A stretch of DNA of 64,000 bases from Acidobacteriota bacterium (lineage in GTDB: Bacteria > Acidobacteriota > Terriglobia > Bryobacterales > UBA6623): assembly GCA_016125275.1 (NCBI GenBank), contig WGMB01000009.1, forward strand, positions 186,001 to 250,000, in the 5' to 3' direction. The position numbers and the translations under genes are program-made. The notes below the pieces were generated by a model. The model saw only the letters and a list, made by a program, of their open reading frames with translations, did not search any database and was not told the DNA's origin. Shown in pieces: positions 3,491 through 13,936 of the stretch; position 1 is the first letter of the stretch, and every line of letters begins with the position of its first letter.

Positions 3491-5107
3491 ATGAAGACCT
3501 CCGCCGACCTGCTCTTCGATCACGTCATCGGCCTCATCGAACCCCTCACGCGCTTCGACCGAACCTCCCTGGCGCGGACCTCGGAGCGGATCACCGAAGC
3601 GCGCGGCGAGGCCTCGGTGCGCTGCCAGGCCCAGTTCGAGATCGACCGCGAGTCCAAGGCCGGCAAGCTGCCTTCCGTCGTACGCTCCTTCCCCAACGCC
3701 GCCGGCGCCCGCCAGGCCGCCGAAGCCGCCCGGCGGACCGCCCTCGCCGAGCTGCCGGCGCGGCTCGAGGCCTGGGCCGTGCGCAACCGGAGCAACGACT
3801 CCCGCCTGGCCCCGGGGGACTGTTTCGCGGGCCCCAGCGTCTGGGGCTGCCAAACCACCTGCTCGTCCTGCGGCGGCGCCGGCAAGAAGCGCTGCCACGC
3901 CTGCGGCGGCCAGGGACGCACCTCCTGCGGCTCCTGCCATGGCCGCGGACGCGCCCGCTGCAGCAGTTGCGGCGGCGGCGGCAACCAGAGCTGCGGCTCC
4001 TGCGGCGGCATGGGCCGTCAGCAGCAGGCCGTCACCCGCTCCGTCTGGGACGGCTACAACAACCGCTACAACACCGAGACGACATACGAGTACCGCAACT
4101 GCGCCACCTGCATGGGCACGGGCCGGCGGACCTGCAGCGGCTGCTACGGCTCGGGCGAAGTCACCTGCTGGACCTGCTCCGGCTCCGGTTCGGTGGGCTG
4201 CTCCACCTGCGGCTCCAGCGGCTCGGTCTCCTGCTCCACCTGCTCCGGCACCGGCGCTCTGCATGAGACCTGGCGGCTGCGCTGCTCGGTCTCGGCCGCC
4301 TACGACGTGCAAGTCGCCCACGGCGTGGCCGAAGTCGCCGCCAAGCTGCGGTCGCTCTCGCTCGCCGATCTGGGCCGGCTGGCCTCGGTCACGCAGTTGG
4401 AGCCGCATGTCTCCGCCGCCGCCGTGCGCCGCCGCTACGCCTTCGCCTGCCGCATCTCGCAACTGGTCATCCAGGCCGGCGACCAGGCGGTCTCGCTGGT
4501 CGGTTACAGCGGCGGCGCCCACGTCTTCGACTTCAAGAACATCGTCGGCGTGCTACTCGAAGGCGACCTCCAAACGCTCGAACAGGCCGTGCAGCGCTCC
4601 GAGGCGATCTCCCTGCAGCCGCAGCCGATCCTCATCGACGCCGTCAACGCCTGCCTGCAATCGGAAGCCAATGTGCATCTCGGCGAGAACGGCGAGGCCA
4701 AGCAGCGCCTGCTCGCCGACGGCGGCCTCGGGGCGGACTACGCCGCGCGCCTCACCGCCGCCCTGCGCACCGCCTTCCGCCGGCTCTACTTCGGAGAAGT
4801 GGTCCTGGGCGCTGCGATCGCCGCCCTGGTCCCGGCCGTCACCGGCGCCGCGGCCTTCCTGTTCGGCCTCATCGCCGCCTACGGCCCCGCCACGCTGCTG
4901 GCGCCTCCCCTGCTGGGCGCGGCCTTGTTCGCCGGCTTCGAGCTCATCGCCCGCCGGCGCCTGGCCGGCCTCTTCGGGGGCGTCTTCGAGCAGCGCCGCA
5001 TTGACGCCATGTTGCGCGGGCAGAAGGTGTTGCGGCGCTGGCGCCTCGCCACCGCGGCCGTCGCTGCGGTCTTCTACTTCGCCGCGATGTGGAGCGTGAC
5101 GCTCTAG
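3491..5107 (+). CDS. Membrane protein with ten 11-residue CxxCxGxG zinc-ribbon-like repeats
   Basis: A 538-residue protein of unknown function. Residues 1-120 are soluble. Residues 124-171 hold five CxxCxGxG units with cysteine pairs at 124/127, 135/138, 146/149, 157/160 and 168/171. After a 32-residue Tyr/Asn/Gln-rich spacer a second block of five follows at 204/207, 215/218, 226/229, 237/240 and 248/251. The period is exactly 11 residues in both blocks. The repeats resemble the DnaJ zinc domain (CxxCxGxG), which has only four units, so several zinc ions are likely bound. Residues ~265-410 form a mixed domain. Two to three hydrophobic helices follow (about 437-485 and 518-535), so the protein is membrane-anchored at its C-terminus. 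There is no J-domain and no signal peptide. It stands alone between divergent thiC and a DHH protein. Confidence 0.75.
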   Translation: MKTSADLLFDHVIGLIEPLTRFDRTSLARTSERITEARGEASVRCQAQFEIDRESKAGKLPSVVRSFPNAAGARQAAEAARRTALAELPARLEAWAVRNRSNDSRLAPGDCFAGPSVWGCQTTCSSCGGAGKKRCHACGGQGRTSCGSCHGRGRARCSSCGGGGNQSCGSCGGMGRQQQAVTRSVWDGYNNRYNTETTYEYRNCATCMGTGRRTCSGCYGSGEVTCWTCSGSGSVGCSTCGSSGSVSCSTCSGTGALHETWRLRCSVSAAYDVQVAHGVAEVAAKLRSLSLADLGRLASVTQLEPHVSAAAVRRRYAFACRISQLVIQAGDQAVSLVGYSGGAHVFDFKNIVGVLLEGDLQTLEQAVQRSEAISLQPQPILIDAVNACLQSEANVHLGENGEAKQRLLADGGLGADYAARLTAALRTAFRRLYFGEVVLGAAIAALVPAVTGAAAFLFGLIAAYGPATLLAPPLLGAALFAGFELIARRRLAGLFGGVFEQRRIDAMLRGQKVLRRWRLATAAVAAVFYFAAMWSVTL

Positions 5108-5187: not shown

Positions 5188-6180
5188 ATGAGGGCCCGGA
5201 TTCTCCATCACGATCGCTGCTTCGACGGCGCCTGCTCGGCGGCGATCTTCACGGATTTCTTCCGCAAAGTCGTCGCCGCGGACGCGGACGTCGACTATGC
5301 CGGCCTGTTCCATCAAGCCAACCAGGTCTTCCCCGACGAGCTCTTCCCCGGCGACGAGAACGCCATCGTCGACTTCAAGTTCGCCCCGCACCCCAAGCTC
5401 ACCTGGTGGTTCGACCATCACCAGAGCGCCTTCCTGTGCGAGGCCGACGAGGCCATGTTCCGCAGCGATCGCTCCGGCCACAAGTTCTACGACCCCGGCT
5501 ACCGCTCCTGCACACAGTTCATCGCCGACATCGGCCGCGAACGCTTCGGCTACGACCCGACGCCGCTGAACACGCTCATCCACTGCGCCGACATCATTGA
5601 CAGCGCTTCCTACGACAGCGCCGAACAGGCCGTGATGATGCCCGAGGCCGCCATGAAGCTGACGCTCGTCTTCGAGGCGTCCCGCGAGAACCTCACCCAG
5701 CAGGTCATCCCCCTGCTGCTGAGCGAGTCGATGGAATCCATCATGCGCCGGCCCGACATCGCGCCGGTCTTCGAGGAGCTCTTCCGCAAGCACCTGGACT
5801 CGATCGAGATCATCCGCCAACGGGCCGCCTGCCGCGACGGCGTGATCTTCTTCGACCTGGCCGACGCCGAGTTGGCCGGCTACAACAAGTTCATCCCCTA
5901 CTACCTGTTCCCGCAGAGCGTCTATACGGTCTCGATCGTCGACGCCGGCTTCCGGACCAAGATTTCGGTGGGGTCGAACCCCTGGTCGCCCGTCGAGCCG
6001 ACCAAGAACTTGGCTTCGCTGTGCGAGCGCTACGGCGGCGGCGGCCATCCCCGCGTCGGCGCCATCAGCTACGGCCCCGGCGAGATCGAGCGCGCCCGCG
6101 CCTCGGCCGCCGAGATCGTCGAAGAGCTCACCGAGGCGGCGCAAGGCCTGCCCGAGCAGGGCGCCCGCGCGCAGGGCTGA
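5188..6180 (+). CDS. DHH-family phosphoesterase
   Basis: A 330-residue cytoplasmic metal-dependent phosphoesterase of the DHH superfamily, which includes NrnA, RecJ and pyrophosphatases. The N-terminal metal site is ILHHDRCFDGACSA (about 5-18), followed by IVDF (60-63) and the eponymous D76-H77-H78 in WWFDHHQSAF. The C-terminal DHHA1-like substrate-binding signature GGGGHPRVGA begins at residue 283. The overall size matches NrnA-like oligoribonucleotide or cyclic-dinucleotide phosphodiesterases, so hydrolysis of short RNA or pGpG-like products is plausible. This would fit beside the neighbouring diguanylate cyclases, although that link is inference from adjacency. The gene is convergent with the first GGDEF gene and only 25 bp separates their stops. 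Confidence 0.85.
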   Translation: MRARILHHDRCFDGACSAAIFTDFFRKVVAADADVDYAGLFHQANQVFPDELFPGDENAIVDFKFAPHPKLTWWFDHHQSAFLCEADEAMFRSDRSGHKFYDPGYRSCTQFIADIGRERFGYDPTPLNTLIHCADIIDSASYDSAEQAVMMPEAAMKLTLVFEASRENLTQQVIPLLLSESMESIMRRPDIAPVFEELFRKHLDSIEIIRQRAACRDGVIFFDLADAELAGYNKFIPYYLFPQSVYTVSIVDAGFRTKISVGSNPWSPVEPTKNLASLCERYGGGGHPRVGAISYGPGEIERARASAAEIVEELTEAAQGLPEQGARAQG

Positions 6181-6183
6181 GGC

Positions 6184-6216
6184 GCAGTTCAGGGCTGAGA
6201 GCAGTTCAGGGCTGAG
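6184..6216. repeat. Tandem 16-nt repeat spanning the stop codon of the GGDEF gene
   Basis: GCAGTTCAGGGCTGAG occurs at 6184-6199 and again at 6201-6216. A partial third copy (CAGGGCTGAGGC) overlaps the 3' end of the DHH gene at 6172-6183. On the minus strand each unit contains CAGCCCTGA, the last codons and stop of the GGDEF gene. Confidence 0.7.
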
Positions 6217-7651
6217 GCACGCCGGCTTCGCGGCGCTTGCTGCGCTTGGTCTCGTACATCGCCAAATCGGCGGCTTCCACCAGCTTCTGGCCGTTGGGAT
6301 GGCCGTCGCCGGACCAGGCGACGCCGTAGCTCGACGAGACCCACGCCAGCCGGCCCTCGATCTCGATCGGCTTCTCGATCACCTTGCGCGTCCGCTCGGC
6401 GACCATCTCGGCCGCCTCCCGGCTGACGGCCTCGTCGAGCACCACCACGAACTCGTCGCCGCCCAGCCGGGCCACCAGGTCTTCCTGCCGATGGCTGGTC
6501 CGCAGCCGGTTGGCGATCTCCACCAGCACGCGGTCGCCGGCGGCGTGTCCCCAAATGTCGTTGATGCGCTTGAAGCCGTCGAGGTCAAAGAACACCACTC
6601 CGAAACGCCGCTCCGGATGGCGCTCCACCAAGGCCGCCATCTGATCGAGCCGATCGAGCAGGAAGCGGCGGTTGGCGAGCCCGGTCAGCCGGTCGTGCAA
6701 GGCTTCGTGGCGCAGTTGCCGCTCCAGGCCCTTGCGCTCAGAGATGTCGAGAAAGGCCCCGGCGATGCGCACCCGCCCTTCGGCGTCGGCGGCCGCCTGC
6801 CCGCTCACCAGCGTCCACTGGTACTCGCCGTCGCTACCCCGCACGCGGTGCTCCAAGCTCAATCGCCCTGCGTCTTCGCGAAGCTGGGCCCGCAGTGCGT
6901 CGGTCACCGCCCTGCGATCGTCGGGATGCACCAGCGACAGCCAGTCCTCCAGACCGCCGTGCAGCGCCTCGGTCTCGTAGCCGAACATGGCAGCCCAGCG
7001 CGGCGACAGGTAGAGCGTCGCGTCTCCCGGGTCATACTCCCACAGCGCCGCCTCCGAGCCCGCCACGGCCCTCTCATAGCGCTGCCTCGCCGCCGCCTCG
7101 GCCTGGTTGGCCAAGAAGGCGCTCTCGAAGACCTTCAGGCGGGATTCGAACACCACCATGGCAATCACCGCCGCCACGAACGCCACCGCGCTCATCTCCG
7201 TCCGCAGCGGCCCCGGCTCGGTCTGCAGGAACGCCCACAGCCAGCAGACGAAGGTCAGCGCCCCCATCGCCGCCATCCGCCGCCGGTCCACGAAGACCGA
7301 CCCGGTCGCCAGCAGAATGATCCCCAGAAACGCGATGCAGGTCGGATTCGAGCCCGACACCGCGTGGACGGCTACCTCCACGCTCAGCACGCCGGCCAGC
7401 AGCAAGCTGCCGCTCTCGATCAGCCAACGCCCCGGCCGCAGCTTCAGCAGCAGGCAGTAGGCCATCGCCGCCAGCGCCGACGAAAGCGCCGCCGCCGTCG
7501 AGGTCCAGTGCAACGGCCCCGGCCAGATCCAGAAGTCGCCGATCAGAAACGCCCAGCACAGCAGGACCACAGGCGGGCACGCCTGGACCAACGCGTCGTG
7601 CAAGCGCACGCGCAGGAAGTCGCGATACGGAGATGGCTCGGCCATGCCCAC
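6206..7651 (-). CDS. Membrane-bound PAS-GGDEF diguanylate cyclase (paralogue 1)
   Basis: A 481-residue protein predicted to make cyclic di-GMP from two GTP. Residues ~20-175 hold about six transmembrane helices, which could act as a sensor. A PAS fold with PAC tail follows (about 190-310; ALWEYDPGDATLYLSPRWAA, then FLDISERKGLERQL), and then the GGDEF domain (about 320-475). The active-site loop is RLGGDEF with GGDEF at ~397-401. The product-inhibition site RxxD (RQED) lies exactly five residues before it, so the enzyme is probably active and feedback-inhibited. The GTG at 7651 is chosen because TAGGGT (7661-7666) lies 9 nt upstream, as for other genes here. An ATG two codons inside (7645) is the alternative. 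Its neighbour upstream is a paralogue, so the pair arose by tandem duplication. Confidence 0.9.
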   Translation of the reverse strand: MGMAEPSPYRDFLRVRLHDALVQACPPVVLLCWAFLIGDFWIWPGPLHWTSTAAALSSALAAMAYCLLLKLRPGRWLIESGSLLLAGVLSVEVAVHAVSGSNPTCIAFLGIILLATGSVFVDRRRMAAMGALTFVCWLWAFLQTEPGPLRTEMSAVAFVAAVIAMVVFESRLKVFESAFLANQAEAAARQRYERAVAGSEAALWEYDPGDATLYLSPRWAAMFGYETEALHGGLEDWLSLVHPDDRRAVTDALRAQLREDAGRLSLEHRVRGSDGEYQWTLVSGQAAADAEGRVRIAGAFLDISERKGLERQLRHEALHDRLTGLANRRFLLDRLDQMAALVERHPERRFGVVFFDLDGFKRINDIWGHAAGDRVLVEIANRLRTSHRQEDLVARLGGDEFVVVLDEAVSREAAEMVAERTRKVIEKPIEIEGRLAWVSSSYGVAWSGDGHPNGQKLVEAADLAMYETKRSKRREAGVPQP

Positions 7652-7660
7652 GTGCAGCCT

Positions 7661-7666
7661 ACCCTA
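7661..7666 (-). promoter_or_regulatory. TAGGGT -10-like element for GGDEF gene 1
   Basis: On the minus strand TAGGGT ends 9 nt before the GTG at 7651. The spacing matches the other near-leaderless promoters and supports the GTG start over the internal ATG. Confidence 0.35.
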
Positions 7667-7767
7667 CAGTCCTTCCGCCCAAGTTGACCACTCGCTCTCC
7701 GCCCTAGCTGTGTCAAGAGAAGCCCTGAAGTCGGCCCGGACCCAAAGGGCTGTGGCGCATGGCCCGT

Positions 7768-9312
7768 TTAGTTCTTCGGCAGTCTCGGAACCAAGCCGGC
7801 GTCGAAGCCGCGGGCGCCGGACTCGGTCTCGACCGGCCAGCTCTTGGAGGCGTCCGGCCCCGCCGCGTCGCGCTCCGCGGCGCCCGCGCGCAACCGTTTT
7901 GTCCGCTTGGCCTCATACATGGCCGCATCGGCCGCTTCGAGCATCTCCTTACCGGTTGCGAAGCCGTCCCCGGACCAAGCGATGCCGCAGCTCGACCCCA
8001 CCCGCACCGAATGACCCTCGGAAACCTCGATCGGTTGCGCCAGCTTGCCGCGGATGCGCTGCGCGAAGCCCTCGCTCGAGCTACGGCTGGAGGCGTCGTG
8101 CACCAGCACCACGAACTCGTCGCCGCCCAGCCGAGCCAGCGTATCCTCCACCCGGCAGTTCTCGCGCAGCCGCTCGGCGGTCTCGGTCAAGACTCGGTCG
8201 CCGGCGGCGTGGCCCCACTCGTCGTTGACTTGCTTGAATCCGTCGAGGTCGAAGAAGACCACGGCGAAGGTCTGACCCGGATTGCGGCGCGCCCGGGCTA
8301 GGCTCTGCTCCAGCCGGTCGTAGAGCAGCCGACGGTTCGCCAGCCCCGTCAATCGGTCGTGCAGCGCCTCGTGCCGCAAGTGGGTCTCGAGCTGGATCCG
8401 GTCGTCGATGTCCACGAACGAGCCGGCCAGCCGCATCAGGCCCAGCGAGTCCGGCGAGGACTTTCCGCTCACCAGGAACCAGCGGTAGGCCCCGTCGGCG
8501 CACTGGATGCGGTGCTCCAGCGAGAACGTGGGCAGCGCCTCCTCCGAGCGCATCTCCAGCGCCTCGACCACGGCTGCCCGATCGTCCGGGTGGACCCGCG
8601 AGATCCAGGCGTCGAGCGTGGCGGGCAACTGACCCGGCTTGTAGCCCAGCATCGCCGCCCAGCGCGGCGCCAGCGTCAGTGCGCCGTTGGAAGGGCAATA
8701 CTCCCACAAGGCGCTGTGCGAGCCCTCTGTGGCCCGCTCGTAGCGCAAACGCGCCTCCACCTCGGACTGCCCGGTGGCGAACGACGTCTGAAAGGCCTTC
8801 GCCCGCACATGAAAGCAGAACAGGCCCGACAGCGCCGCCACCGCGCCGGCGATCGCCATCTCCGACCACTGCTGGTCCTGCGGCGAGTGGTACCAGACCC
8901 AGGCCCCTCCGATCAGCATCGACGCCAGCGCCGCCATCATCTGCGGCCAGCGAACCAAGATCGCGCCGGCGACCAGGATGATTACGCCCAGATACGCCGC
9001 GCCGCTGGCCTGACCGCCCGTGGCGGCGTTGATCGAGGTCAGCCCGATCAACGAGATCACCAGCGCCGGCCCGCCCCATTCGATGACGTACGAATTGGGG
9101 CGTCGCCACAGCGCCAAGCCATACAAGCCCGCCACCAGCGCCGACGCCATCGAGATCGCCGCCATCTCCCAGCGCACGGCCCTCGGCCGGTAGTAGAGAT
9201 TGAAGGGAACGAAGGCCAGGCAGATCAGTACTGTGGGCGGCACGACATGCAGCAACGCGTCGCGCAGCCGAGCGTTCAGGTACTCTCGATATCGCGCTTC
9301 AGGAGCCAGCAT
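7768..9312 (-). CDS. Membrane-bound PAS-GGDEF diguanylate cyclase (paralogue 2)
   Basis: A 514-residue paralogue of the preceding GGDEF protein with the same order: about six N-terminal membrane helices (20-180), a PAS/PAC module (about 195-315, ALWEYCPSNGALTLAPRWAA), then GGDEF. The signature RLGGDEF is intact, and the inhibitory RxxD site is present as RVED five residues upstream. It differs by a ~35-residue polar C-terminal tail after the GGDEF fold. The two proteins share stretches such as LRHEALHDRLTGLANRR, but their membrane segments have diverged, which suggests different input signals with the same output. The ATG at 9312 lies 9 nt after a TAGCGT element that is embedded in a palindrome. 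The two GGDEF genes are 116 bp apart and probably have separate promoters. Confidence 0.9.
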   Translation of the reverse strand: MLAPEARYREYLNARLRDALLHVVPPTVLICLAFVPFNLYYRPRAVRWEMAAISMASALVAGLYGLALWRRPNSYVIEWGGPALVISLIGLTSINAATGGQASGAAYLGVIILVAGAILVRWPQMMAALASMLIGGAWVWYHSPQDQQWSEMAIAGAVAALSGLFCFHVRAKAFQTSFATGQSEVEARLRYERATEGSHSALWEYCPSNGALTLAPRWAAMLGYKPGQLPATLDAWISRVHPDDRAAVVEALEMRSEEALPTFSLEHRIQCADGAYRWFLVSGKSSPDSLGLMRLAGSFVDIDDRIQLETHLRHEALHDRLTGLANRRLLYDRLEQSLARARRNPGQTFAVVFFDLDGFKQVNDEWGHAAGDRVLTETAERLRENCRVEDTLARLGGDEFVVLVHDASSRSSSEGFAQRIRGKLAQPIEVSEGHSVRVGSSCGIAWSGDGFATGKEMLEAADAAMYEAKRTKRLRAGAAERDAAGPDASKSWPVETESGARGFDAGLVPRLPKN

Positions 9313-9463: not shown

Positions 9464-9877
9464 TCAGGCGCGCTCTTCGGGGCCCCGCGGAGCCACCGCG
9501 TCGGCCTCGATCTCCACCAGCATCTTCTTGTCGATCAGCCGCGCCACCTCCACCATCGTGGCCGCCGGACGGATCGCGCCGAAGAACTCGCGGTGCGCCC
9601 GGCCGACCGCCTCGCTGTCGCGCACGATGTCGGTGACGTAGATCCTGGTGCGGATCACGTCTTCCAGCCGGGCTCCGGCCGCCTCCAGCGCTTCCTGGAT
9701 GGTTCGTAGCGCCTGCAAGGCTTGGCGGTAGGCCTCCTCGGACGAGCCCAGGCGGCCGAAGGGCCCGCGCGAGACCGTGCCGGAGACGGCGATCAGGTCG
9801 CCGATCCGCACGGCCCGCGAGTAGCCCACCGTCTCCTCCCACGGCGCGCCGGAGGAGACGTTGCGCCGTTCAGGCAC
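9464..9877 (-). CDS. RidA/YjgF-family protein
   Basis: A 137-residue single-domain Rid protein. Canonical RidA hydrolyses reactive enamine/imine intermediates, and relatives serve other catabolic steps. The conserved block MVEVARL gives Arg113 (equivalent to the catalytic Arg of RidA) and VEIEADAVA gives Glu122/124. The N-terminus SSGAPWEETVGYSRAVRIG is typical of the Rid subgroup in sugar or amine catabolic clusters. The GTG start overlaps the stop of the upstream isomerase-like gene by 8 nt, which indicates translational coupling. The two products therefore probably work in the same pathway. The cytoplasmic substrate is unknown. Confidence 0.88.
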   Translation of the reverse strand: MPERRNVSSGAPWEETVGYSRAVRIGDLIAVSGTVSRGPFGRLGSSEEAYRQALQALRTIQEALEAAGARLEDVIRTRIYVTDIVRDSEAVGRAHREFFGAIRPAATMVEVARLIDKKMLVEIEADAVAPRGPEERA

Positions 9878-10721
9878 GCAGTCGCTCCAGCAGAGCGATC
9901 GCCTCCAGGATGTCCTTGCGCTGCTCGTCGCCCAGAATCTCGCGCTCGATCGTCAGCGGGCCGGTGTAGCCCACCTCCTTGAGCTTGTCGACGAAGCGCT
10001 CCATGCCCACGTCGCCCTTGCCCAGCGGCGTCTCCGCGCCCCACTCGCCCTTCACCTTGGGCCACGAGCCGTCCTTGGCGTGGACGGTCACCAGGTGATC
10101 CTTCACCATCTCCAGCGCCTCGATCGGGTCGCCTTCGCCGTAGAGGATCAGGTTGGCCGGATCAAAATTGATCTTCAGGTTCTCGCGGTCCACGTCGGCC
10201 AAGAAGTTCAGCAGGTTCTGGGCCGGCTCCTGCCCGGTCTCGAGCGCAAAGGTCTGGCCGTGGGCGGCGCAGTGGTCGCACAGCCGGCGCACCAGATCGC
10301 GCACGGCGATGTATTCCGGGTCGGAGCGGTCGTGCGGCAGGCAGCCGACGTGCGATGCCAGCCCCGGCACGCCCAGCTCGCGGGCGAAGTCGCTGGCCTC
10401 GAAGGCCCTCTTTTCCCGCTCAGCGCGCGGCTGCTTGGGCACGAAGCCCACCGTGCCGGCGCAAATCGGGATGCTGGCGTAGCTCTCGCCCTCGAATCCC
10501 GGAAAGCAGGTGACGACGGTGATGCCGGCGTCAGCCAGCGCCTTCTTCCAGCGAGCCGCGTTGGCGGAGCTCAGGTCGGCCTTGCCGTCCAGCCCGAGCT
10601 GGCCGCAAGTGACGCCCAAGGATTTGACCGAAGCCACGATCTGCTCCGGAGGCGCCTCCACGCCGAGCGGACCGCCGGTCCAAAACATCACGCCCACTTG
10701 CAGGGGTTCCAGGTTCAGCAT
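9870..10721 (-). CDS. Sugar phosphate isomerase/epimerase (xylose-isomerase-like TIM barrel)
   Basis: A 283-residue protein of the AP-endonuclease-2/xylose-isomerase TIM-barrel superfamily. The usual four metal ligands are visible: Glu161 (FALETGQEP), Asp187 (INFDPAN), His214 (VTVHAKDGS) and Glu259 (LTIEREI). Family members interconvert keto sugars or inositol derivatives in the cytoplasm. The exact substrate is not predictable. It lies between a Gfo/Idh/MocA oxidoreductase (62 bp upstream) and a RidA protein (overlapping downstream), all on the minus strand. That is a common arrangement for degradation of inositol-like or modified sugars via dehydrogenation and isomerisation. The ATG at 10721 is followed directly by the first barrel strand, so no signal peptide is present. 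Confidence 0.88.
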   Translation of the reverse strand: MLNLEPLQVGVMFWTGGPLGVEAPPEQIVASVKSLGVTCGQLGLDGKADLSSANAARWKKALADAGITVVTCFPGFEGESYASIPICAGTVGFVPKQPRAEREKRAFEASDFARELGVPGLASHVGCLPHDRSDPEYIAVRDLVRRLCDHCAAHGQTFALETGQEPAQNLLNFLADVDRENLKINFDPANLILYGEGDPIEALEMVKDHLVTVHAKDGSWPKVKGEWGAETPLGKGDVGMERFVDKLKEVGYTGPLTIEREILGDEQRKDILEAIALLERLRA

Positions 10722-10783
10722 GATTCGTTCTCCTCAGAGCCGGATGCGTCGCGGGGCCGACCTTCCCCGTCCGGGCCGCACGC

Positions 10784-11767
10784 CTAGCGGGCGTCGCGCG
10801 CCTCGATGGTCATGCGGATGGCCTCCGCCGAGTCCTGCGGGCGACAGTCGGACGGGGGCTCGCCGGTCTCGCAGGCTTGGACGAAGGCTTCCAGCTCGGC
10901 CACGAAGCCGTCCTTGTCCGGCACGGCGACCTCTTCCGCCTTGCCGTCGGCGCCGTACAGCGTCAGCCGCCGCAAACCGCTGTGAAAGTCCAGCGTGCCG
11001 CCCTCGCACACGATGGTGAACTCCATCGAGAAGGGGTAGGCCTGCGGATGCCGCCAGCCGCCGGCGATGGTCACCTGCGGGCCGCCGGGGTAGACCAGCC
11101 GGGCCTCCAGCGTGTCGATGCCTTGGGGCATCTCCTCCACCCCCTGCGCGTCGATGCTCTCCGGCTTGCCGAACAGGTGCTGGCAATAGTCGAAGTCGTG
11201 GATCAGCAGGTCGAACACACCGCCGCCGGAGCGCTCTCGGTCGTGCATCCACTTGCTCCACACCGGCGCGGCGCACTTGCGGTAGAAGAACGCCTGCTTC
11301 ACAGGCCCCAGCCGGCCGGACCGGATCAGGTCGCGGGCGGCCACATAATCGGGCCAGAAACGCAGCACCTGCGCCACCATCAGCACCTTGCCGGCCTTGT
11401 CGGCGGCGGCGATCATCTGGTCGCACTCCGCGGCGCTCAGCGCCATCGGCTTCTCCACCAGCACGTGCTTGCCCGCCGCCAGCGCGGCCAGCGCCTGCGA
11501 AGCGTGCAGCGAGCTCGGCGTGCACAGGTCCACGGCCTCTACGTTGGGGTCGGCGAAGAGCTCTTCGGCCGTGCGGTAGCGCGCCGCCGCGCCGAAATCC
11601 ATGCGCTGGCCGCCCCGGTCGAGATTGCCCGAAATCGAGCTCAAGTCGCCGCTGAGTTTCTTCTCGTCGCTGCTGGAAACCGCAACGATCTCCGCGCCCT
11701 CCACCTGCTGATAAGCCTGCAGATGGGTGCTGCCCATGAATCCGAGTCCGACGACGCCGATTTTCAA
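10784..11767 (-). CDS. Gfo/Idh/MocA-family NAD(P)-dependent oxidoreductase
   Basis: A 327-residue oxidoreductase. The N-terminal Rossmann motif GVVGLGFMG (4-12) binds NAD(P). The conserved EKP triad is Glu105-Lys106-Pro107 in VLVEKPMAL, whose Lys is the usual catalytic residue. GGGVFDLLIHDFDYC, near residue 190, supplies the Asp and His normally close to the substrate. The family oxidises sugars, inositols and their derivatives. It is the first gene of a three-gene minus-strand cluster with a TIM-barrel isomerase and RidA, so conversion of a sugar to a keto-sugar followed by isomerisation is the likely pathway. No signal peptide, hence cytoplasmic. The lone metallophosphoesterase further upstream has no evident connection. 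Confidence 0.9.
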   Translation of the reverse strand: MKIGVVGLGFMGSTHLQAYQQVEGAEIVAVSSSDEKKLSGDLSSISGNLDRGGQRMDFGAAARYRTAEELFADPNVEAVDLCTPSSLHASQALAALAAGKHVLVEKPMALSAAECDQMIAAADKAGKVLMVAQVLRFWPDYVAARDLIRSGRLGPVKQAFFYRKCAAPVWSKWMHDRERSGGGVFDLLIHDFDYCQHLFGKPESIDAQGVEEMPQGIDTLEARLVYPGGPQVTIAGGWRHPQAYPFSMEFTIVCEGGTLDFHSGLRRLTLYGADGKAEEVAVPDKDGFVAELEAFVQACETGEPPSDCRPQDSAEAIRMTIEARDAR

Positions 11768-11830
11768 CCTTGGAGCTCTCCTTGCCTCGAGTGGAACCTA
11801 CTGCTCGGGTCGATCATGATCTCATTCCGC

Positions 11831-12424
11831 CTACAGCTCCAGCAAGAATCCGCGTTTGCCCACGTTGCGGCCCTGGGTCGCGCCCAGCCGCGCGGAGACG
11901 CCCTCGGCCTCGTGGATATGGCCGCAATAGAGGTACGCCGGCTGCTTGCGGTCCACGAACTCCCGCACCGCCTGGCTGCCGAAATGGGCGTTGGGGCCGG
12001 CGGCGTCCAGCGGCGTGCCCTGCGGCGGCGCGTGGCACACCAGCGCCAGCGGCTCCAGATCGGCGAAGGCCTCCAGCCGCGAGGCCAGCTCGGCCTCGCT
12101 GAACTCGCCCGGCGTATCGAACGGCGTGGGGCTGGAATAGCCCAGGCCGGCGAAATGCCAGCCGCCCTTTTCGAACGAAACGCCGTGAAAATTCTGAAAT
12201 CCGAACTTGCGGCAAAAAGCCTCGATCTGCTCGCCGGTTTCGTGGTTGCCCGGCATCACCCAGAGCTTGTCGCCCAGCGGTTTCAGCACCTCTCCGCAAG
12301 CATCGAGCCCGCGGCCCCAGTTGCACAGGTCGCCGGCGCACAGGTACAGGTCGGCGTCCACGGAGGCGTTGCGTTCCAGAGCGGCCAAGTCGCTGTGGAT
12401 GTCGGAGAAGATCTGCACCCGCAT
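11831..12424 (-). CDS. Calcineurin-like metallophosphoesterase
   Basis: A 197-residue cytoplasmic phosphoesterase. Motifs appear in order: DIHSD (8-12), CAGDLCNWG (near 30), MPGNHE (near 57), VCHAPPQG (near 127) and YCGHIHEAEG (near 168). These supply the Asp, His and Asn ligands of the di-metal centre of the calcineurin-like/YfcE group. Family members hydrolyse phosphodiesters or phosphomonoesters, and the substrate is unknown. A much longer open frame continues upstream into the antisense of the HEAT-cyclophilin gene. The ATG at 12424 is the true start because the first beta strand MRVQIFSDIHSD begins there and matches family N-termini. It is divergent from the HEAT-cyclophilin gene, 48 bp away. 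Confidence 0.88.
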   Translation of the reverse strand: MRVQIFSDIHSDLAALERNASVDADLYLCAGDLCNWGRGLDACGEVLKPLGDKLWVMPGNHETGEQIEAFCRKFGFQNFHGVSFEKGGWHFAGLGYSSPTPFDTPGEFSEAELASRLEAFADLEPLALVCHAPPQGTPLDAAGPNAHFGSQAVREFVDRKQPAYLYCGHIHEAEGVSARLGATQGRNVGKRGFLLEL

Positions 12425-12460
12425 CGGCCCCAGTGTACGACAGCGCCCCGCGCGCGTTGC

Positions 12461-12466
12461 TAGCAT
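12461..12466 (+). promoter_or_regulatory. TAGCAT -10 element, leaderless GTG start at 12473
   Basis: TGCTAGCAT ends 6 nt before the GTG, so a transcript beginning about 7 nt after the hexamer would start at the GTG itself. An ACGACA at 12437-12442 (18-nt spacer) is a possible -35 with four of six consensus matches. Confidence 0.45.
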
Positions 12467-12472
12467 GCCTGG

Positions 12473-13936
12473 GTGGATTTCTCCTTCTTCCGCCGCAACG
12501 AGGTGCGGCTGCTGGGCCTGTGCATGACGCTGTTGGCCGCCGCGGCCGCCTGGCTGCTCTCCACCCGGCCGGGCCATCGCATCGACGGCGACTTCATGGA
12601 GCGCGAGCAGGCCGGCGACGCCGATCTCTGGCTGCTGCGGCAGGCCGCCAACAACACCGTGGCCGAGGAGCGCGCCCGCGCCGCGCTGGCCCTGGGGCGC
12701 ATCGGCGGCCCCGTCGCCGTGGAGAGGCTCGTCAAGATGCTCGGCGACTCCGCCCCCAGCGTGCGCGCCAACGCGGCCTTCGGGCTGGGTTTGGCCGAGG
12801 ACGCCGGCTACGGCGCGCAGCCCGATGAAGCCGCCGCCGAGGCCTTGCTCGCCGCTCTCGACGACGACGAGCGCAAGGTGGTGGCCTACGCCGTCGAAGC
12901 CCTGGGCAAGATGCATCGCCAGTCCGCCGCCGTGCGCCTCACCCGCACGCCGGCGCCGCTGGTCTTCACGCTCACGGCGCTGGTGCGGCTCGACGACGAG
13001 CGCTTGCTGCCCTGGATCGCCGCCCGGCTCAGCTCCGGCGACCAGGACGTGCGCTGGGCCGCCGCAGTGGCCCTCAACGAGCTCGAAGCCCCTTGCGACG
13101 AAGCCATCAGCCGCTCGATGGTCAACCTCGCCACCCGCGACCGCAACGACTTCGTCCGCGCCGCCGCCGCCCGCGCCCTGCGCCGCTGCGAGCCCGGCGA
13201 CGACGCCAAGACCGCCATCGGCGCCGCCCTGAGCGACCGCGACCCCAAAGTGCGCGGCCAAGCCGCCGAGACCATCGGCCTGTGGGGCGACGCTGACCTG
13301 GCCGAATGGCTCGACCCGGCCACCAAGGATTCCAACCCGGTGGTCCAGCTCCAGGCTCTGCAAGCGGCCGTGCGGCTGGTTCCCGAGCTGCTGCCGGAGG
13401 TCCGCGCGCAGCTCGGCTCGGTGGACCTGGAGTTGGCCGCGCCGGCCTTCCCCGCCCCCGCTGCGCGTCCGGCCGAGGCCGTCCCCGCCTTCGAGCCGCC
13501 GGAGCTGCAGCAGATCGCGCGCACCAAGGGCCGCAACCTGGTGATGGAGACTTCCGAGGGCGAGCTGCCCATCGAGCTCGACTACGAGCTGGCGCCGCTG
13601 GCCGCCGAGCGCTTCTACCGCATGGCTCTGTCGGGCGCTTTCGAGCTGCAAACGGTCGGCGCGCTGCGCCCCAACGGCTACGTGCAGTTCCCGGCCCGCG
13701 ACTTCGCCGCCCAGAAGCTGGCGGCGCACCGCAACCAAAGGCCCTTCCTGCGCGGCAGCCTGGGGCTGGTTCCGCTCGACGGACGCTGGGACGCGCCGGC
13801 CTTCTTCATCGCGCTCACGCCGCTGCCGCTGCTCGACGGCCGGGCCACCAACTTCGGGCGCTTGCTGGCCGGCGACGACATCCTGGACCGCCTCGGACCC
13901 CAGGCGCGCATCCTGGCGATCCGGGCGGCCCAGTGA
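12473..13936 (+). CDS. HEAT-repeat protein fused to a degenerate cyclophilin-like domain
   Basis: A 487-residue exported or membrane-anchored protein. Residues ~12-31 form one hydrophobic helix near the N-terminus. Residues ~45-330 are alpha-helical HEAT/PBS-type repeats, seen as recurring units such as RARAALALGRIGG, RANAAFGLGLAED, RWAAAVALNELEA and RGQAAETIGLWGD. After an Ala/Pro linker, residues ~355-487 resemble a cyclophilin peptidyl-prolyl isomerase: NLVMETSEGELPIELD, RGSLGLVPLDG and FFIALTPLPLLDGRATNFGRLL align with the usual strands. The catalytic Arg and Phe positions of cyclophilin (FHR) are not evident, so enzymatic activity is doubtful. HEAT repeats suggest protein binding and possibly a periplasmic scaffold or chaperone. 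Start is GTG with a probable leaderless promoter. It converges with the TIGR03437 gene, 10 bp apart. Confidence 0.72.
   Translation: MDFSFFRRNEVRLLGLCMTLLAAAAAWLLSTRPGHRIDGDFMEREQAGDADLWLLRQAANNTVAEERARAALALGRIGGPVAVERLVKMLGDSAPSVRANAAFGLGLAEDAGYGAQPDEAAAEALLAALDDDERKVVAYAVEALGKMHRQSAAVRLTRTPAPLVFTLTALVRLDDERLLPWIAARLSSGDQDVRWAAAVALNELEAPCDEAISRSMVNLATRDRNDFVRAAAARALRRCEPGDDAKTAIGAALSDRDPKVRGQAAETIGLWGDADLAEWLDPATKDSNPVVQLQALQAAVRLVPELLPEVRAQLGSVDLELAAPAFPAPAARPAEAVPAFEPPELQQIARTKGRNLVMETSEGELPIELDYELAPLAAERFYRMALSGAFELQTVGALRPNGYVQFPARDFAAQKLAAHRNQRPFLRGSLGLVPLDGRWDAPAFFIALTPLPLLDGRATNFGRLLAGDDILDRLGPQARILAIRAAQ

Follow-up and report, generated by a model that had tools for sequence, protein, structure and literature searches.

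An open reading frame on the forward strand at positions 3491–5107 of the window, by which we mean the whole 64,000-nucleotide stretch of DNA analysed here, encodes a 538-residue protein of a soil bacterium, P0001. The protein carries ten CxxC units split between two five-unit blocks, starting at residues 124, 135, 146, 157 and 168 and at residues 204, 215, 226, 237 and 248, with spacings of 11,11,11,11 / 36 / 11,11,11,11. A Tyr/Asn-rich loop of 28 residues (176–203) lies between the blocks. The gene divides as follows:

3491..5107, + strand: P0001 gene, for a predicted 538-residue zinc-hairpin membrane protein; open frame with full-length homologues 26–33% identical
3491..3838, + strand: N-terminal platform, residues 1–116; helix, two-stranded sheet and helix, from alignments and AlphaFold2 (AF2)
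3860..4015, + strand: units 1–5, residues 124–175, predicted ascending arm; period 11, cysteines kept in 5/5 proteins, AF2 strands
4016..4099, + strand: predicted tip beta-hairpin, the Tyr/Asn-rich loop, residues 176–203; AF2 strands 176–187 and 192–203
4100..4255, + strand: units 6–10, residues 204–255, predicted descending arm facing units 5–1; AF2 strands
4256..4525, + strand: second half of the platform, residues 256–345, beta-rich; AF2 strands, conserved in the alignment
4526..4771, + strand: helical linker, residues 346–427, with a conserved LxSExN; AF2 helices (moderate confidence) and alignment
4772..5104, + strand: membrane anchor, residues 428–538, with three predicted transmembrane (TM) segments; hydropathy and charge count

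An earlier sequence-only reading of this DNA had described ten units in two blocks of five with an exact period of 11 within each block, and P0001 confirms this description. When residues 120–262 were shuffled 20,000 times, the longest period-11 CxxC chain was 3 (reached in 13 shuffles), against 5 + 5 in the real protein. The mean pairwise DNA identity between units is 58%, so the array is not a recent tandem duplication of DNA. Searched alone, P0001 gave no match in Pfam, NCBIfam, PHROGs or PDB sequences, in keeping with the earlier remark that no named family with this architecture was known; none was found in the Pfam, NCBIfam and PHROGs libraries.

Upstream of the gene, on the opposite strand, lies ThiC, and directly downstream, at 5188–6180 (+), a 330-residue open reading frame without a Pfam match, which by eye resembles a DHH phosphoesterase. 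Further along, at 6206–9312 (−), two adjoining genes look like paralogues, the first encoding a PAS-GGDEF protein according to Pfam. No gene neighbours conserved among the P0001 homologues were found, so genomic context lends the function of P0001 no support.

Full-length homologues came from two Pyrinomonadaceae (L036 and L039), an Acidobacteriales MAG (L043) and an alphaproteobacterial MAG (L044). The first was found by searching Acidobacteriota with the C-terminal part of the protein and the second by a family-level search; the three-sequence alignment, run against the genome collection, then yielded L043 and L044. Zero relatives emerged when P0001 as a single protein was run against the genome collection, when the family alignment was used in a viral scan, or when phage records were searched by tblastn. 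The family is rare and scattered, being present in 2 of 396 sampled Acidobacteriota genomes (the window's own genome counted), while among 349 genomes of the alphaproteobacterial MAG's phylum a convincing score was obtained in the query genome only. We set aside matches in relatives at E about 1e-4, which aligned over the array only and lay mostly in DnaJ-sized open reading frames, and did not count plasmid matches as family members, these being array-only as well, with unrelated flanks in two of them.

Across the full-length alignment the other four members are 26–33% identical to P0001. All five share the IEPLTRFD motif (P0001 residues 16–23), which is invariant, five + five Cys pairs, the platform and a C-terminal TM region, and several further positions flanking the array on both sides are also invariant. 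A variable low-complexity region with non-conserved cysteines, which the sequence-only reading had named as counter-evidence, is not what the alignment holds: the ten units keep their full set of 20 cysteines in 5/5 proteins, unit 8 of L043 being CxC rather than CxxC. The glycines are far less conserved than the cysteines, many Pyrinomonadaceae units having no GxG, and block 1 is unevenly spaced in both Pyrinomonadaceae homologues (11,10,11,16 and 11,13,13,16). The strict CxxCxGxG motif and period thus stand for P0001 but not for the family, whose conserved feature, as judged from the alignment, is ten Cys pairs arranged as five + five. The loop between the blocks has the same length in P0001, L043 and L044 and is nearly absent from L036 and L039.

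AlphaFold2 was run on residues 1–349, with a five-sequence alignment and no zinc, and separately on the full-length protein; the soluble part was folded alone because TM helices filled the VIA list of the full-length model. The 1–349 model (mfc9771cc178b) has a mean pLDDT of 85, with the hairpin blocks at about 84–95 and the platform at about 60–68 over residues 1–30 and 83–95 thereafter; the other four models reached 68–73, and pTM was 0.58. The chain ascends through strands 117–123, 132–134, 143–145, 154–156, 165–167 and 176–187 and descends through 192–203, 212–214, 223–225, 234–237, 245–247 and 256–275. The outer strands pair as 117–123/256–262, 132–134/245–247 and 143–145/234–236, the inner strands as 154–156/223–225 and 165–167/212–214, and the tip as 176–187/192–203. 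Read outward from the tip, the partners all sum to 379 (165+214, 154+225, 143+236, 132+247, 117+262), indicating a single antiparallel ladder whose axis falls at residue 189.5 and in which units face each other as 1–10, 2–9, 3–8, 4–7 and 5–6; this pairing was taken from the secondary structure and register of the model. The full-length run gave the identical register, and within the arm its confidence is low only at 141–152 and 226–237, two stretches that mirror each other about the axis. The second half of the platform (strands 256–275, 299–302, 306–308, 311–329 and 332–340) seals the hairpin at its base, against strand 117–123.

We consider it very probable that the array forms a five-rung antiparallel zinc hairpin with cross-arm pairing, zinc being the predicted metal of its sites. 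The Tyr/Asn-rich loop, on the AF2 models, is the tip of the hairpin and not a spacer. The rigid rod proposed from the sequence survives in part: the modelled shape is indeed elongated, yet it consists of one antiparallel hairpin whose blocks face each other and would form five four-Cys sites, not ten units in single file.

In the VIA comparison of the 349-residue model, four BSD2 entries (crystal and cryo-EM) lead with Z of 6.4, 5.1, 5.0 and 4.3, DnaJA2 ranks fifth at 3.6, and unrelated rows score 3.1 and less. The best BSD2 structure, 6ekb, reaches Z 6.4 over 60 residues, a value below 8 and obtained with a predicted model. The aligned ranges (142–237, 141–238, 138–239 and 130–252 for BSD2; 166–213 for DnaJA2) are all centred near residue 189.5, and both DnaJA2 and 6jzb (Z 2.4) superpose, at weak Z, on residues 166–213, that is, on units 5–6. 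Such Z values below 8 are weak when taken alone, yet the top chains are those that would be expected, and they stand above the unrelated rows. Against PDB sequences, the family profile matched BSD2 (9ci1) at E 6.6e-5 and the E. coli DnaJ zinc domain at E 7e-4. Foldseek against the PDB returned nothing at E <0.001, and the structural matches listed contained no convincing known fold for the platform domain.

In DnaJ (type I Hsp40), Cys4 zinc sites form between two hairpin arms, and the loop between its inner units 2 and 3 is the equivalent of the Tyr/Asn-rich loop of P0001. CxxCxGxG units are common to P0001 and the DnaJ Cys-rich domain (PF00684), but DnaJ has four units and two zinc ions against ten units and a predicted five, its units are more widely spaced, and it carries J, G/F and C-terminal substrate domains. 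The absence of a J-domain, already noticed from the sequence, was upheld in P0001 by the lack of a Pfam or NCBIfam match and of any HPD in its 538 residues; PF00684 did not match it either, one homologue touching that family at E 0.16 only. BSD2, or ZnJ2 (bundle sheath defective 2, PF25436), shares with P0001 CxxCxGxG units without a J-domain, in a hairpin of the kind predicted for P0001, and is its best match both in structure (6ekb) and in PDB sequence (9ci1). It is, however, a small soluble chloroplast protein that binds RbcL and has four units, without platform or membrane anchor, and PF25436 did not match P0001, which has ten units rather than four.

Anti-TRAP (RtpA, PF15777) likewise shares the CxxCxGxG zinc module, which there serves protein–protein contact; it is a soluble 53-residue protein of two units that forms trimers and dodecamers (PMC2896485). 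P0001, with ten units at spacing 11 in a 538-residue membrane protein, differs from this single two-unit module, and the NCBIfam RtpA model touched one homologue at E 0.043 only. The FtsH5-interacting protein of Arabidopsis (FIP) is a membrane-anchored CxxCxGxG zinc finger that has no J-domain and binds the FtsH5 protease (PMC5915565); it has two repeats, belongs to the plant thylakoid and has one hydrophobic region, and no other resemblance to P0001 is known. P0001 would work like an enlarged DnaJ/BSD2 hairpin but is a member of neither family, having no J-domain, ten units, a platform split by the arm, and an anchor. Metal binding and DnaJ-like units without a J-domain would both fit all the evidence. 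A limited search of open-licence text found no description of equal-halves arrays of ten or more units.

The C-terminal helices that marked P0001 as a membrane protein in the sequence-only reading correspond to three TM segments predicted by hydropathy at about residues 432–461, 468–487 and 519–538; at the same place, three segments are predicted in 4/5 family members and two rise above threshold in L044. The loop between the second and third segments (489–518) holds 9 K/R, whereas that between the first and second (458–465) holds 0, and nothing resembling a signal peptide was seen at the N-terminus. By the positive-inside rule, the basic loop predicts that the N-terminal part, with the zinc arm, is cytosolic. 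In the cytosol, cysteines remain reduced and able to bind zinc.

If rungs form between two arms, arrays are expected to be even-numbered, with the turn in the middle, and other CxxC arrays support the hairpin independently on this point. We searched viral contigs for runs of three or four period-11 units, a pattern that constrains one arm and leaves the other free, and combined the viral-contig matches listed with sequences from a pattern scan of Acidobacteriota, giving 101 distinct arrays of at least 5 units that were uncut by a contig end. The Acidobacteriota scan was mostly CTG-repeat noise, the real arrays after filtering being the window family and L185 only. Among the matches listed, 96 of the 101 arrays are even-numbered, in 89 of these 96 a single longest gap sits exactly at the centre, and halves of 3, 4, 5, 6 and 7 units account for 32, 37, 21, 3 and 3. 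The odd-sized halves exclude neighbour pairing as a general rule, and the central gaps, at only 10–15 residues, are too short to allow a parallel arrangement. The flanks fall into eleven clusters, the largest of 68 among the matches listed, and the arrays are thus not independent. Within clusters, again among the matches listed, N-flanks 41–57% identical accompany 6, 8, 10 or 12 units, indicating that whole rungs are gained or lost on both arms. We had also expected single-residue changes in gap length to be mirrored on the other arm, but this failed (only 3 of 19 among the matches listed), and the Pyrinomonadaceae members, too, have extra residues in one arm only, against mirrored arms.

The rule is not confined to phage families. 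An Acidobacteriota protein (L185 856–3111, genome G593) combines a 4+4 array with subsequent TM segments and TPR repeats; Halobaculum WP_284063458.1 has 18 CxxC units, with two 15-residue gaps that mirror each other; and the Streptomyces plasmid protein WP_326695775.1 (L063) is 4+4 when degenerate units are counted by eye. As in P0001, these arrays and those of the phage families have period-11 units in two equal halves, and in the Halobaculum, Streptomyces and L185 proteins TM segments follow the array; they differ in having 6 to 18 units and flanks for which no relationship to the window family was detected. The equal-halves rule is a general one that reaches beyond the P0001 gene.

Several of these proteins, and some others, have features of their own. 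The Halobaculum protein, encoded at 2479–4899 of L062 (a Halobaculum halobium plasmid), is 806 residues long, contains several TM segments and resembles a winged helix in a stretch at its C-terminus. On one viral contig (L241), adjoining genes at 9543–10982 and 11048–12601 belong to the same phage family but carry 3+3 and 5+5 units, as though the number of rungs had changed following a gene duplication. A 340-residue open reading frame on the Halobacterium salinarum R1 plasmid PHS2 (L065 2935–3957), for which the plasmid table lists no covering gene, has about 12 CxxC at spacings mostly alternating between 10 and 11. In the window genome's order (G152, L014 1057–1914), a 285-residue protein combines ten irregular CxxC units with a C-terminal segment that is repeated, and its gene adjoins an open reading frame possibly for a phage structural protein.

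Cysteines so arranged could be used in other ways. Were neighbouring units to pair (1+2, 3+4 and so on) with one zinc per pair, as in anti-TRAP, the array would be a string of knuckles and a true linear rod. Two-unit CxxCxGxG proteins are known, namely anti-TRAP and the cysimiditides (PMC13001092), and a Methylobacterium protein whose 12 units form six pairs, at spacings of 14 and 27, scores with Pfam Anti-TRAP; its pair spacing, however, is 14 and not 11, the blocks of P0001 are odd (five units), the common halves of 3, 5 and 7 (32, 21 and 3 of the 96 listed) would leave a unit unpaired, and both AF2 runs predict pairing across the arms. We regard neighbour pairing as very unlikely. The Methylobacterium protein itself (L064 2119–3678, M. 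aquaticum plasmid pMaq22A_1p) has an HNH domain and also matches Pfam DnaJ_CXXCXGXG, and its paired arrangement differs from the equal-halves arrays. We give equally little credence to a metal store or metallothionein-like buffer, in which the cysteines would provide capacity for zinc or other ions rather than shape. Twenty cysteines could hold five or more metal ions, and zinc handling could benefit from such capacity at the membrane, but a store would tolerate odd or uneven arrays where equal halves are general, the family keeps its unit number fixed at ten with precise Cys spacing, and next to the P0001 gene neither a transporter gene nor a metal gene was recognised.

Redox-active CxxC pairs would make P0001 a membrane-bound thiol oxidoreductase or redox switch, which we think improbable: no redox partner gene was recognised nearby and the predicted four-Cys sites look structural, even though weak thiol-reductase activity of DnaJ is reported (PMC4428491), and algal ZnJ2 has been tested for such activity and discussed in connection with it (PMC5818400). 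A minority prospect of more weight, though still doubtful, is that P0001 serves at the membrane as a spacer or ruler of fixed length, or offers a zinc scaffold to some non-chaperone partner, nucleic acid for example, the length of the arm outweighing client binding. Similar phage-family proteins differ by whole rungs, as expected of a tuned reach; in the window family, however, the unit number is constant at ten, and no nucleic-acid domain was found with Pfam or NCBIfam.

Our preferred reading, to which we assign a probability of about 0.6, is that P0001 is a cytosolic, membrane-tethered and zinc-stabilised hairpin arm that binds protein. The chain would begin with one half of a small alpha/beta platform, climb through units 1–5, turn at the beta-hairpin tip, descend through units 6–10 and then complete the platform. 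The CxxC of unit i would meet its counterpart in unit 11-i, located on the facing strand, making five predicted Zn(Cys)4 rungs (1+10, 2+9, 3+8, 4+7 and 5+6) and so extending the two-rung zinc hairpin of DnaJ and BSD2 to five rungs. The three-helix anchor after the platform would tether P0001 to the inner membrane and, since the platform is built from both flanks of the array, the arm would project from a fold beside the membrane. Its tip and faces may bind a partner protein, holding it or helping to assemble it at the membrane. BSD2 contacts RbcL, anti-TRAP contacts TRAP and the DnaJ arm contacts substrates; it is because these known small relatives act by protein contact that we guess at protein binding. 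ZnJ2, moreover, is zinc-binding and has been called a chaperone (PMC5818400). By this analogy, a membrane-tethered protein-binding arm of the BSD2/DnaJ type is a tentative functional assignment, at slightly less than even odds.

Zinc-finger repeats are usually pictured as beads on a string. If the ladder is true, the repeats instead lie opposite one another in a single long hairpin, where one chain supplies all five metal rungs. The equal-halves rule is seen alike in phage, bacterial and archaeal proteins whose flanks are unrelated. A sequence rule for such hairpins would then be an even number of units with the longest gap central, a rule that predicts zinc content from sequence as half the unit number. 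Among hairpins ordered by length, the 2+2 zinc hairpin of DnaJ appears to stand at the short end, and we lean towards viewing the DnaJ zinc finger as a short member of a general, unnamed antiparallel zinc-ladder fold that spans 2+2 to 9+9 and whose two arms gain or lose rungs together in evolution, so that it can serve proteins as an arm of adjustable reach, P0001 being its five-rung, membrane-tethered example. This raises the evolutionary question of the route by which rungs are gained on both arms in step, and would offer protein design a set of naturally occurring stiff arms that differ stepwise in length.
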